Below, piece by piece: positions 1 through 5,599 of a stretch of DNA of 64,000 nucleotides (its first letter is position 1; each line of letters opens with the position of its first letter). A model generated the notes under the pieces. It was not told the DNA's origin, searched no databases, and was given only the letters and a program-made list of their open reading frames with translations. The stretch spans positions 1 to 64,000 of the forward strand of contig CATLOT010000006.1 of assembly GCA_950054155.1 (NCBI GenBank), read 5' to 3'. The position numbers and the translations under genes were made by a program. This stretch comes from an uncultured Bacteriovoracaceae bacterium (GTDB lineage Bacteria; Bdellovibrionota; Bacteriovoracia; Bacteriovoracales; Bacteriovoracaceae).

Positions 1-370
1 TAACCCCCATAAATTTCTTGATAAATGGCTGCATTTTGGTGGGCACGCAGATGGTAATGCCGATATTCTCGCTGTTGCCCGCCGTGAAGTTGAAGAAGAA
101 TCTGGCTTAAGTGATTTTGACCTTGCTTATGATGGTATTCTTAGCGTTGATGTGCACCCTATTCCCGAAAACCCTGCACGGGGCGAGCCTGCGCATCATC
201 ATTTTGATATTATTTATTTGTTCAAATTGCGCGAAGGTGCAGATGAAACACCTGCCATTAGCGATGAATCTGCCGCGCTAAAATGGGCGGCGTGCGATGC
301 GCTTGAACAGTTTTCCCTTGAAACACACCTACAATCTGCGCTAGATAAAGCCATAAAGTTATTGGCCTAA
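1..370 (+). CDS. Nudix hydrolase, 5'-truncated by window edge
   Basis: The frame is open from base 2 to the stop at 370, so the N-terminus lies outside the window; 122 residues are visible. A Nudix box is readable near the start as GGHADGNAD followed by RREVEEESGL, matching the RExxEExG core that binds the metal and the diphosphate substrate. The upstream conserved Glu position is not obvious, as in the GGHxDG subgroup. A cytosolic enzyme cleaving a nucleoside diphosphate linked to another moiety is expected; the substrate cannot be read. It lies 23 bases before fluC. Codon style (GCG, GGC, TTA) differs from everything after about 1.3 kb, so it belongs to the foreign-looking segment. Confidence 0.8.
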   Translation, partial: NPHKFLDKWLHFGGHADGNADILAVARREVEEESGLSDFDLAYDGILSVDVHPIPENPARGEPAHHHFDIIYLFKLREGADETPAISDESAALKWAACDALEQFSLETHLQSALDKAIKLLA

Positions 371-393
371 TTTGGCCTAAAAGGATAAGAAAC

Positions 394-774
394 ATGCTTA
401 TGTGGTTAAGCGTTGCGGCGGGCGGCGCAGTTGGCGCGGTTTTAAGATATGGAGTAAATATTGCCTCTACCGCGCTTTGGGGCTTAAATTTCCCTATCGC
501 AACAATGATTGTCAATATTTTGGGGTCGTTCATATTAGGTACGCTTGCCGGCGTATTTGCCCATTACGGGCAGCCAAGCCATGAAATGCGCGGCTTTATT
601 GTCACAGGCATGCTCGGCGCGTTTACGACATTTTCAACCTTCTCACTCGATAGCGTCACCTTGTTTGAGCGCGGGGCATATAGCGCCTTTGCCTTTTACT
701 TGATCGGGTCAGTTACATTCGGCTTAATCGCATTTTTATGCGGGCAACATTTAATAAAGGTTATCCACCCATGA
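394..774 (+). CDS. crcB: Fluoride ion channel FluC/CrcB
   Basis: A 126-residue protein of full family length with four hydrophobic segments. Family signatures are GGAVGAVLRY near the N-terminus, the N-x-x-GSF stretch in the second helix and the GMLGAFTTFSTFS motif in the third. FluC forms a dual-topology dimer that exports fluoride across the inner membrane. Its stop overlaps the ATG of the following pseudouridine synthase (ATGA at 771-774), showing translational coupling. In Alphaproteobacteria crcB is commonly followed by rluC, which fits this order and supports an alphaproteobacterial origin of this end of the window. No fluoride riboswitch is seen in the 23 bases upstream. Confidence 0.93.
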   Translation: MLMWLSVAAGGAVGAVLRYGVNIASTALWGLNFPIATMIVNILGSFILGTLAGVFAHYGQPSHEMRGFIVTGMLGAFTTFSTFSLDSVTLFERGAYSAFAFYLIGSVTFGLIAFLCGQHLIKVIHP

Positions 775-1736
775 GCGGCGTCCAGAATATCATTGTAAGT
801 AAAGAAGAAAACGGACAGCGTCTTGACCGCTGGCTCGGTAAAAAAGGCGTGCCATTCTTTTTGGTTCATAAATTTTGTCGCTCTGGGCAGTTGCGCATTG
901 ATGGCAAACGCGCAAAAGCGGATGTACGTTTGGTCGAGGGGCAAAATGTGCGTGTTCCGCCATATACACCAAAAGACAGCACCCCGCATAAAGGGCCCGT
1001 AAAATTATCCGAAAAAGATCGCGCTTATATTAAATCCCTTGTTATTTATGACGACGGGCAAATCATTGCACTAAACAAGCCAAGCGGCCTTGCCACACAG
1101 GGCGGTACAAATATGAAACAGCATGTTGACCGTCTGTTAGTCGGTCTTGCTGATAAAGACGGTATTAAACCACATCTTGTTCACCGCCTCGATAAAGGCA
1201 CAAGTGGTATTATGGTGGTCGCTAAAAATCAAAAGTGTCATGAAGGCCTTGTTCTTCTCTTTAGTGATCATAATATTGAGCGCGAATACCAGGCACTCGT
1301 GATGAAGACCAAACTCGCCGCTGGAGCCGCTATCGAAACCACTCTAGGCCGTCACCCTCAAAATCGCCTCAAGATGGCAGCAGATGTTAAACAAGGAAAG
1401 AGGGCTAAAACCTTTTATAAGGTTCTTGAAAACCTTCCCACTTGCACTCACGTCTCCTGTACTCTTGAAACAGGTCGCACTCATCAGATTAGAGTGCATA
1501 TGAGTCAGATGCTTCAAGCGCCCATTCTTATGGATCCCCTATACGGAAGTCCAAAAGATCACCTCAACCGCTTACCCGCGCAGGTGAGCAGTTACTTAAA
1601 AGATTATCCCCACCCTCTACTTCACGCGAGAAAACTTGGATTTATTCATCCTATCACCAAAGAAGAACTTCTCTTTGAAAAAGAACCACCAGAAGTCTTC
1701 GCTCACACTTTAGAGCTTCTTAGGTCATTGTCGTGA
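771..1736 (+). CDS. RluA-family 23S rRNA pseudouridine synthase, apparently chimeric
   Basis: A 321-residue protein with an N-terminal S4 RNA-binding domain (residues ~10-70) and an RluA-family catalytic domain. The active-site block HRLDKGTSG holds the catalytic Asp, and ETGRTHQIRVH is the second conserved motif. The start at 771 is chosen over 738 because it gives the ATGA overlap with crcB. The first ~140 residues look like alphaproteobacterial RluC downstream of crcB. From the HRLD motif onward, sequence and codon use match the genes that follow, where rlu-pgeF is the usual pair. The ORF is intact, so it could be functional if real, but the switch inside a conserved motif is also what an assembly or amplification chimera would produce. 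RluC versus RluD cannot be decided. Confidence 0.85.
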   Translation: MSGVQNIIVSKEENGQRLDRWLGKKGVPFFLVHKFCRSGQLRIDGKRAKADVRLVEGQNVRVPPYTPKDSTPHKGPVKLSEKDRAYIKSLVIYDDGQIIALNKPSGLATQGGTNMKQHVDRLLVGLADKDGIKPHLVHRLDKGTSGIMVVAKNQKCHEGLVLLFSDHNIEREYQALVMKTKLAAGAAIETTLGRHPQNRLKMAADVKQGKRAKTFYKVLENLPTCTHVSCTLETGRTHQIRVHMSQMLQAPILMDPLYGSPKDHLNRLPAQVSSYLKDYPHPLLHARKLGFIHPITKEELLFEKEPPEVFAHTLELLRSLS

Positions 1737-2332
1737 AAATCATTTGGCAGTACCAATGGGAGCGATTTGATTTTAGTGTCTACGATGATCGTCCCGACTT
1801 TCACTTTTATGAAGTCAAGCAAGTGCATGGCAAAGATATTGCCACCACTCCCCTCCCTAGAGAAGAACTGGTTGAGGCCGATGGCCTCCTCTCACTTCAA
1901 GAGGAGCCCTGCCATCTTGCCATTAAAACCGCCGATTGTTTGCCAGTGGCCTTTCTAGGTCTTAAGGGCTGCGCCAATATCCACGCAGGCTGGCGAGGGC
2001 TTCATGCGGGGATCCTTCTCGATCCGTCCCTTAAAAAGCTAGAGCCTCAAAAAATCATTATTGGGCCAGCTATTCAAAGGGAATCCTACGAGGTTGGGGA
2101 AGAGTTTAGGGAGTATTTTTCCGCTTACCCCCAATGTCTGGTTAAAAATGACCAAAAATTGACCTTTGATTTGCCTGGAGTATGTGAAATTCAGCTCAAA
2201 AGGCATTATCATGGAAGTGAAATCATAAATTGTAATTTAGATACTTTTTCAAATCCTGAACTCAATAGTTACAGACGAAATCAGACGACTCGTCGTAATT
2301 ATAATGTTCTCAAAGTTATGAGGAAAAAATGA
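1733..2332 (+). CDS. pgeF: PgeF/YfiH multicopper-laccase-fold peptidoglycan editing or purine nucleoside enzyme
   Basis: A 199-residue protein starting at GTG 1733 and overlapping the stop of rlu by four bases. Signatures of the YfiH (Cu-oxidase_4) family are VKQVHG, ADGLLS, TADCLPV and ANIHAGWRG, with the Cys and His residues that form the zinc site. E. coli YfiH acts as a peptidoglycan editing factor, and homologues also act on purine nucleosides; which applies here is not readable. It is somewhat shorter than the ~240-residue E. coli protein. The rlu-pgeF pairing is widespread. It is followed with a four-base overlap by the VKOR-DsbA gene, so translation is coupled across three genes. Confidence 0.88.
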   Translation: MKIIWQYQWERFDFSVYDDRPDFHFYEVKQVHGKDIATTPLPREELVEADGLLSLQEEPCHLAIKTADCLPVAFLGLKGCANIHAGWRGLHAGILLDPSLKKLEPQKIIIGPAIQRESYEVGEEFREYFSAYPQCLVKNDQKLTFDLPGVCEIQLKRHYHGSEIINCNLDTFSNPELNSYRRNQTTRRNYNVLKVMRKK

Positions 2333-3489
2333 GCAAAGACCAAAAGCAAAGCTTCTATCAGGCAGCCCCCTTTAACACTAAAATCATGGGAGGCGTTGCC
2401 GCTGTCGCCATGGTGATCCTTTCGATCTACCTCACAAAACACTACTTTGACGTTAAGTTTCCTACAGGTCTCACTGGTGGTGGACTTTGTGATATCAACT
2501 CTTTCTTTAACTGTGATGTGGCCACCCACTCTCATCTCTCCAATATCGCAGGGGTGCCGATCTCCCTAATGGGCCTACTCATGGGACTCTTCGTTCTTGT
2601 CGGCTTCTTTTGGAAGGATGAAAAAGTTGAAGGTACTGTGCACCTTCTTTTATGGGTCAATGCCGTTGGTTGTATTGCACTCTTCTTCTTTAGCCTCATC
2701 GCCCTTGGCGGTCTTTGTCCTGCCTGTACACTTTACTACGTCTTTAGTTGGCTTGCTCTTTATGCTTTTCATCGCACCAGCAAGCTCATTGCTCCGGGCC
2801 CCGTTCCTGCCATAACGTACCTGGTTGCTTTTGGTATTATGTTTGGAAGTACCTATAGTTATGTTGCTGGAAAAGAAGCGAAGAATAGCGCTGCCAAGAG
2901 TAAGCTCGCTCAAAGTCTAACAACTCAATACGATAACCTTAAGAATCTTGGCGCCCCTGAACTGAAGTCAGAATTCCTTCTTGCCAATGTTGAGGGTGGG
3001 TTTGATAAAGCCCCAATTCGCATCACTAAATTTAGCGACTTTGAGTGTCCTGCTTGTCGCATGCTTTCTGAGAATCTTCACGAAGTCGCAAAGAAATATG
3101 CCGGTAAAATTGCTATTCAATACTTCTTTTATCCCCTTGATAGCAGCTGTAACCCTGAGATGAAGAGTGCTCTTCATCAAAATGCTTGTCAGGCAGCTTA
3201 CCTCGCGGCTTGTCTTCCCCAAAAATTTCCAGAAATTGAAGAGAAGATTTTCAACAATCAAGCGAACCTCTCTTATGATTGGATTCTTGGTGTGGCCAAA
3301 GAAGAGGGTGTTGAAGAATGTATGAAATCAAGCGCGACAAAGGAAAAAGTCGTAAGCTATATCAACGCCGCTAAGCCTTTTACAGTTCGCTCAACACCTA
3401 CTTTTCTTCTCAATGGTGTGAAGATTGAGGGTGTTCTTCCTGTTAGCCAACTTGAGATTCTCATCGATCATGTGCTACAGAAGCAGTAA
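2329..3489 (+). CDS. VKOR-DsbA fusion, disulfide-bond formation
   Basis: A 386-residue two-domain membrane protein. Residues ~20-180 form a VKOR-like bundle with paired cysteines C54 and C62 and the quinone-side CPAC motif at C130-C133. Residues ~215-386 form a DsbA/thioredoxin-like periplasmic domain with CPAC at C240-C243 and the cis-Pro region RSTPTF near the C-terminus. The fusion would let the VKOR half reoxidise its own DsbA half with quinone, replacing DsbB plus DsbA. It overlaps pgeF by four bases at its start and tatD by one base at its end. The order is consistent with Bdellovibrionota relatives (recollection, not a search). Many secreted proteins in this window are cysteine-rich and are potential substrates (inference). 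Confidence 0.88.
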   Translation: MSKDQKQSFYQAAPFNTKIMGGVAAVAMVILSIYLTKHYFDVKFPTGLTGGGLCDINSFFNCDVATHSHLSNIAGVPISLMGLLMGLFVLVGFFWKDEKVEGTVHLLLWVNAVGCIALFFFSLIALGGLCPACTLYYVFSWLALYAFHRTSKLIAPGPVPAITYLVAFGIMFGSTYSYVAGKEAKNSAAKSKLAQSLTTQYDNLKNLGAPELKSEFLLANVEGGFDKAPIRITKFSDFECPACRMLSENLHEVAKKYAGKIAIQYFFYPLDSSCNPEMKSALHQNACQAAYLAACLPQKFPEIEEKIFNNQANLSYDWILGVAKEEGVEECMKSSATKEKVVSYINAAKPFTVRSTPTFLLNGVKIEGVLPVSQLEILIDHVLQKQ

Positions 3490-4301
3490 TGGCTAAGAAG
3501 AAGCGCGAAATACCCCATTTTGAACTCCCCATTATCGAGACTCATTGTCACCTCGACTACCTTAAGGAACATCCTCTCTCTGAAATCTTAGAGAGAGGAA
3601 AAGCTGTCGGAATTGAAAAAGTCATCACGATCTCAGTGAGCCCTGATAACTTGGATACCGTCGTTTCTTTAACCTCAAATGATCCTTGCATTTTCGGCAC
3701 TCAGGGAATTCACCCCCATCAGGCAAAGAGCTTTAACGATGAGGTTGAAAAGAAGATTCGCGAAAACCTAAAGGCTAATGATAAGCTTCTCGCCGTCGGT
3801 GAGATCGGTCTTGATTTCTACTACAATAATTCAAAACGTGAAGAGCAACTTGAAGCTTTTAAGAGACAGCTTCAAATCGCTATCGACCTTGAACTTCCCG
3901 TCGTTATTCACTCTCGTGATGCCGATGAAGACACTATCGAAATTTTAAAAGAAATGGCCCCTCAAATGAAAAATAAGGGTGTCATCCATAGTTTCACCAG
4001 TGGCCCCGAACTCGCTCAAACGGCACTTGATCTAGGTTTTTGCCTTGGCTTCAATGGAATTATTACTTTTAATTCTGCTGAGAATGTACGAGAAATTGTC
4101 AGACTCTGCCCACTTGAGCGCATCCTTCTTGAAACCGATAGTCCCTTTCTTACCCCTGTTCCCTATCGCGGAGTGGAGAACGCTCCTTTTTATCTGCCTT
4201 TTGTGGCGGAAAAAATTGCCGCCATTAAAGACGTCGAAGTTAATGACGTCCTCTCCACGGCCTACCAAAATACACTGCAAACATTTTTTACTGGTTCATA
4301 G
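3489..4301 (+). CDS. tatD: TatD-family metal-dependent deoxyribonuclease
   Basis: A 270-residue TIM-barrel hydrolase. Metal ligands are visible in family order: THCHLD at the N-terminus, GIHPH, AVGEIGLDFYY with the bridging Glu, VVIHSRDA, VIHSFTSG and LLETDSPFL. TatD enzymes are cytosolic Mg-dependent 3'-5' nucleases involved in DNA repair and turnover. The ATG shares its A with the TAA of the preceding gene. It is the last gene of the rlu-pgeF-VKOR/DsbA-tatD run. A 59-base gap with a fresh Shine-Dalgarno follows before the lipoprotein gene. Confidence 0.93.
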   Translation: MAKKKREIPHFELPIIETHCHLDYLKEHPLSEILERGKAVGIEKVITISVSPDNLDTVVSLTSNDPCIFGTQGIHPHQAKSFNDEVEKKIRENLKANDKLLAVGEIGLDFYYNNSKREEQLEAFKRQLQIAIDLELPVVIHSRDADEDTIEILKEMAPQMKNKGVIHSFTSGPELAQTALDLGFCLGFNGIITFNSAENVREIVRLCPLERILLETDSPFLTPVPYRGVENAPFYLPFVAEKIAAIKDVEVNDVLSTAYQNTLQTFFTGS

Positions 4302-4360
4302 TTTCCTCTCATTGCTCTCTCCCTTAATAGTTCTAAAATAAGGACCAAGTGGAGGAACTC

Positions 4361-5599
4361 ATGAAACAAGCGCATATTTTAACTGTATCTTTAATGATTC
4401 TCATTTCGGGCTGCCTTAAAAAGAAAAATGAAGAAGCTCCAGCAACGGGAACGGGAAGTCGACCAGGGACAGGTACCACACCTACCCCAACACCTACTCC
4501 AGCGCCCGGTCGCTATGGCGTGATCTTTCAAACCCCCGTTAGCGTTAATGGCTCAGGTGCTCAAACAGGCTTGGGATCGGGACTCACAACCCTCGATAAC
4601 CTCTGCTCCACAGCGGCGACAAATAAAGGTCTCACTGGCACCTTTAAGGCCCTCGTTGGCGCCGGTAGTAGCCGCCGCGCTTGTACAAGTGCCAATTGCT
4701 CCGGAGGTCCCGCTGAAAACTCAAATTGGGTCATTCTCGGAAAAACAGAATTTAGAAGAGAAGACAAAGCCACTGTCATTGGAACAACAACGGCTTCGGG
4801 TATTTTTAGTTTCCCTCTCACCAATAGCTTTACGGACTCTGCCGCTGATTATTGGTCGGGACTAAATGCCGATTGGACGGGCTCAGGTGCTCAGTACAAT
4901 TGTAATGCTTGGACTATCAACGACAACTCTCAAACAGCGAATCTTGGTGACACCGGTGTCGATACTAGTGCCTCTCTCTATACGGCCCAACAAGACTGTG
5001 ACCAAACAAACCCTGTCCTCTGTGTTGAACAAGTGGACCCTCCCGCTCAAGAAGACTACCGCATTATCTTTGCCACAGCGAATACCTACCAAGGCGGTTC
5101 GGGCTTTATTGGAATTAATGGCGTGAATGATTTTGATGGAATTTGTAGAAGTGAAGCTCTTCAAAAAGGTCTTATTTATAGTACCTATAAGGCCCTCATT
5201 TATGCCGATGATGAAACTGATCGCTATGCCTGTACAAGTGGTTTTTGTAGTGGTGGCATAGGAGAGAACGTTGGCTGGATTCTTGAAGCAAACACAGAGT
5301 ACCGAAGAGAAGATGGAACAACGGTTATCGGAACGTCTAATGCCTCTGCTATCTTTGACTTTCCTCTTGATAATGGAATCACTGGAAATGCTGGAGATAC
5401 TTACTGGACAGGGATTAGTAACACCTTCTCTTTCTTTAATATGTCTCAGAAGAACTGCTTAGACTTTGAGAGTAAAAGTGCTGGCGCAGAAGGATGGATC
5501 GGAAATGGAGCAGCGACAACAATTGCTGCCTTCAACGATGGTTCATCTGCAAGCTGTGCCACAAGTAGAAAAATTCTCTGTGTTGAGCAAGCCCGTTAA
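4361..5599 (+). CDS. Lipoprotein with two tandem DUF1554-like domains
   Basis: Start ATG 4361 is preceded by GGAGG at 4351-4355; a GTG at 4349 overlaps that Shine-Dalgarno and is rejected. The 412-residue product has a lipoprotein signal ending LISGC, then a charged and Thr/Pro-rich linker of TPTP repeats to about residue 50. Two homologous ~170-residue modules follow, each with an ACTS-x-CSGG block, a TEFRRED block, a TVIGT block and a terminal LCVEQ. This pattern resembles the DUF1554 (endostatin-like) domain of Leptospira surface proteins (recognition, not searched). The product is probably anchored in the outer membrane or periplasm; function unknown. A strong terminator follows at 5618. 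Confidence 0.75.
   Translation: MKQAHILTVSLMILISGCLKKKNEEAPATGTGSRPGTGTTPTPTPTPAPGRYGVIFQTPVSVNGSGAQTGLGSGLTTLDNLCSTAATNKGLTGTFKALVGAGSSRRACTSANCSGGPAENSNWVILGKTEFRREDKATVIGTTTASGIFSFPLTNSFTDSAADYWSGLNADWTGSGAQYNCNAWTINDNSQTANLGDTGVDTSASLYTAQQDCDQTNPVLCVEQVDPPAQEDYRIIFATANTYQGGSGFIGINGVNDFDGICRSEALQKGLIYSTYKALIYADDETDRYACTSGFCSGGIGENVGWILEANTEYRREDGTTVIGTSNASAIFDFPLDNGITGNAGDTYWTGISNTFSFFNMSQKNCLDFESKSAGAEGWIGNGAATTIAAFNDGSSASCATSRKILCVEQAR

Follow-up and report, generated by a model that had tools for sequence, protein, structure and literature searches.

The closest described systems are the RluD-type pseudouridine synthases (RluA family, TIGR00005) of the same genus, the RluC-like synthase of the alphaproteobacterial MAG ARS11 (NZDE01000012.1), and the chimeric contig ends of short-read metagenome assemblies (PMC8172020). 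The RluD-type locus of the genus is recovered in residues 139-321 of the frame at 771-1736 and in the pgeF and VKOR-DsbA genes on the same contig (C6), and in MinD/FlhG-like and DnaJ/HTH genes on a second contig (C55), but residues 1-134 on C6 are not those of the host. The ARS11 synthase is 100% identical over residues 1-138 and lies in the same Nudix-crcB-rluC order; the window departs from it at residue 143, however, and identity over residues 139-321 is 33%. As in the chimeric contig ends, a foreign tip is joined where both genomes are alike; in contrast to them, the parents on C6 belong to distant groups (Alphaproteobacteria and Bdellovibrionota) and the reading frame stays open by chance.

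A mosaic frame at the start of contig C6

The window, that is the whole stretch of DNA analysed (64,000 bases), corresponds to bases 1-64000 of C6 (139,876 bases), window base 1 being C6 base 1. The host draft genome consists of 61 contigs and 3.52 Mb, and is rated 99.91% complete and 1.38% contaminated. The mosaic gene sits at the very start of C6; because the window starts at C6 base 1, the foreign DNA forms the tip of the contig, whose end truncates the Nudix gene. Features are listed below.

1..1197, + strand: alphaproteobacterial DNA forming the foreign tip (3' portion of the Nudix gene, crcB, and rluC as far as codon 142); aligns without gaps at 98% identity to ARS11 NZDE01000012.1 (locus L044, 2231-3427)
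2..370, + strand: Nudix hydrolase, truncated by the contig start, alphaproteobacterial (PF00293); the full gene in L044 encodes 185 aa
394..774, + strand: crcB/fluC fluoride channel, alphaproteobacterial (PF02537); near-identical in L044
771..1184, + strand: 5' half of the spurious hybrid, coding for residues 1-138 and derived from an alphaproteobacterial RluC-like synthase; protein identity 100% to L044, 91% to L045, 75% to L046
1177..1197, + strand: junction word TTGTTCACCGCCTCGATAAAG, encoding (V)HRLDK; the last exact run common to the window and ARS11 ends here
1198..1736, + strand: 3' part of the host rluD-type pseudouridine synthase; over residues 139-321, identity is 70-82% to five congeners and at most 33% to ARS11 and its relatives
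1733..2332, + strand: pgeF, host (PF02578; TIGR00726 under its cut-off); position as in congeners
2329..3489, + strand: VKOR-DsbA fusion, host (PF07884 and PF13462); position as in congeners
3489..4301, + strand: tatD, host (PF01026)

The open frame 771-1736 encodes an RluA-family pseudouridine synthase of 321 aa with PF00849 and TIGR00005; the TIGR00005 score is 213.7 bits (curated cut-off 192.7; residues 12-317), a threshold that a chimera of two family members passes too. The frame was aligned at the protein level with five orthologues from the same genus and identity was read by bins. Residues 21-134 are 10-29% identical to the congeners (10-33% over residues 1-134), against 63-93% between one congener and another; residues 135-140 are 67% identical in the five-congener alignment, and residues 141-321 reach 57-98% per bin, like the congeners among themselves. 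The original prediction had proposed that the two halves be compared separately: residues 1-138 go to ARS11, and residues 139-321 to the five congeners, with the three alphaproteobacteria at 33% or below in the latter part. The gene at 771-1736 is thereby confirmed as a true mosaic within the assembled sequence. Among the relatives' orthologues searched, none matches both halves well and none has the hybrid form; no single Bdellovibrionota protein with crcB upstream is the best match of both. A separate crcB belonging to the host lies on contig C49, and nothing close to the crcB of C6 turned up in the searched genomes of relatives (best identity 42%).

Breakpoint and alphaproteobacterial source

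Bases 1-1197 align with ARS11 in ungapped register with 25 scattered mismatches. Similarity collapses from 1198-1203 on (31 mismatches within 1201-1250), which places the junction near 1197/1198 and narrows down the range of about 1180-1260 predicted beforehand. With ARS11 and two alphaproteobacterial relatives, the match to window 1-4301 stops at 1202-1212. The join falls at VHRLDK, a conserved motif of the family, as had been anticipated.

A switch of codon style within the gene had also been predicted and is borne out: codon-usage log-likelihood ratios are positive for the Nudix gene (+13 nats), crcB (+24) and residues 1-138 (+16), and negative for residues 139-321 (-23), pgeF (-27), VKOR (-61) and tatD (-35), the sign flipping inside the one gene at 771-1736. 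Codon usage alone is a blunt locator of the breakpoint, its best position being 1142, 55 bases before that in the DNA. The G+C content carries no signal near the join (0.44-0.49 on either side).

The 5' part had been described as alphaproteobacterial, with a Nudix-crcB-rluC arrangement. The same order is found intact inside a 546-kb contig of ARS11 (Alphaproteobacteria bacterium, MAG; NZDE01000012.1), with 98% DNA identity over 1-1202, after which ARS11 continues into its own rluC. Only synonymous differences from ARS11 were seen in residues 1-138; the corresponding protein of JASBUS010000045.1 is 91% identical and that of a Micavibrio MAG 75%. Related DNA in these two further alphaproteobacterial MAGs (79% and 70%) matches to the same end point. 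Because identity to ARS11 is 98% and not 100%, the source would be another strain, of the ARS11 species or one close to it, and we infer that it co-occurred in the sample. In a check for wider contamination, DNA neighbouring the ARS11 locus was found in the host genome only at C6:1-1202, save for a 112-base match of 72%. By its naming, ARS11 appears to come from the Tara Oceans Arabian Sea set, for which assembly was by Megahit and Minimus2 (PMC5769542); no argument is built on this provenance.

Bases 1177-1197 are identical to ARS11, and relatives of the host and other family members share 5-11 bases with ARS11 in register there. It is plausible that TTGTTCACCGCCTCGATAAAG (1177-1197) is a word of about 21 bases shared by both parents at the VHRLDK join; as the host's own stretch upstream of the join is unassembled, its carriage of all 21 bases is something we infer.

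The host rluD 5' half on contig C55

The host genome was searched with the 5' part of the rluD of one congener. This query matched the minus strand of C55 at 3-317, with 65% identity (5.9e-38). C55 comprises 9,633 bases, and its rluD frame is open to the first base, ending ...EDEHLLIINKAAGMVV. This 5' half is 58-65% identical to the congeners. Upstream of it lie a DnaJ/HTH gene (63-82% identical to congeners) and a MinD/FlhG-like gene (92-98%), in the order of the congeners; both names were read from the sequence and not obtained by family search. In two congeners (G005, G006) the order is MinD/FlhG-like ATPase, DnaJ/HTH protein, rluD, pgeF, VKOR-DsbA, so that C6 agrees with the congeners downstream of rluD but not upstream of it. 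Judged by the congeners, the gap from the C55 edge to VHRLDK on C6 amounts to about 32 codons (about 96 bases). One high-scoring 5' half and one high-scoring 3' half of rluD are present in the genome, with no second good copy of either. C55 should therefore adjoin C6: with the host's 5' half on C55, the gene is one ordinary rluD split between C55 and C6, the latter carrying a foreign tip of 1.2 kb from a marine alphaproteobacterium.

Farther along C55, a mannose-6-phosphate-isomerase-like frame is found, likewise named by reading.

Origin of the join

The hybrid at 771-1736 is almost certainly an assembly (de Bruijn-type) chimera at a contig tip and not a real gene. An artefact had been judged at least as likely as recombination; the true 5' half on C55, together with a C6 5' half from an ARS11-like genome, decides for the artefact. 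Assembly from k-mers can yield paths that are present in no genome. In one study of short-read assemblies from a mock community, chimeric sequence was always at contig ends (PMC8172020); false k-mer paths and contig-end chimeras both fit the case of C6. The metagenome assembler would have strayed from the host sequence within rluD, where the codons for VHRLDK are conserved, with a short word common to the host rluD and the rluC of the co-occurring alphaproteobacterium as the presumed exit, and the path would then have run about 1.2 kb through the second genome until the contig end. The host rluD would now be divided: its coding sequence as far as NKAAGMVV lies at the C55 start, about 32 codons are unassembled, and the remainder is on C6 from about 1180. 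Homology of the two genes, and a shared word that falls in the same frame in both, would explain why the frame of 321 aa is intact. As expected of such a chimera, the foreign stretch reaches the contig end (C6 base 1; ARS11 identity 1-1197), and both parents are present elsewhere unjoined (intact rluC in ARS11, the rluD 5' half on C55, intact rluD in congeners). A real hybrid would be recognised by absence of the original 5' half or by presence of the hybrid in relatives; the 5' half is on C55.

Real homologous recombination after transfer, by which the host gained the alphaproteobacterial Nudix-crcB-rluC 5' DNA and with it a functional hybrid synthase plus an additional fluoride channel, is very improbable. 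It would account for a hybrid frame intact across the full length of the family (TIGR00005 residues 12-317) and for the position of the join in a conserved motif, a place where crossing over could leave function intact, but the host's rluD 5' half, with ancestral order kept, breaks at the C55 edge and has no other partner in the genome. The foreign piece, moreover, extends as far as the contig end, still has the codon usage of a contemporary genome to which it is 98% identical, and differs from ARS11 only synonymously in residues 1-138.

A laboratory chimera, made by template switching during PCR or whole-genome amplification and not by the assembler, is given just as little weight. Template switching takes place at short shared words too and could thus produce a similar join, but a 1.2-kb in-register foreign tip at a contig end combined with a split host gene is the pattern that an assembly graph error generates, and one amplification chimera would have to reach enough coverage to prevail. 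That a true recombinant synthase between distant bacterial groups exists in one strain, with the ancestral gene (C55) in other strains and an assembly mixing both, is no more probable than either of these.

An assembly chimera is not novel biology; C6 illustrates clearly how a chimeric contig end produces a reading frame that is intact but false. The case shows that misassembly can start from a conserved catalytic motif and, even in a highly rated draft genome, leave behind a hybrid gene that looks plausible and intact, along with what seems to be horizontal transfer of a fluoride channel. Users of this genome should discard C6:1-1197 and regard rluD as one gene divided over C55 and C6.

Minor observations concern the relatives of the foreign piece and the remainder of the window. 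Micavibrio includes predatory alphaproteobacteria. A near relative of the foreign piece (L046) is a Micavibrio MAG, and both parents of the chimera may be predator lineages; no argument is built on this. At window 4349-5599, a frame encodes a lipoprotein-like protein in which a Gly/Thr/Pro-rich linker precedes two repeats that resemble each other, each of about 150-180 residues.
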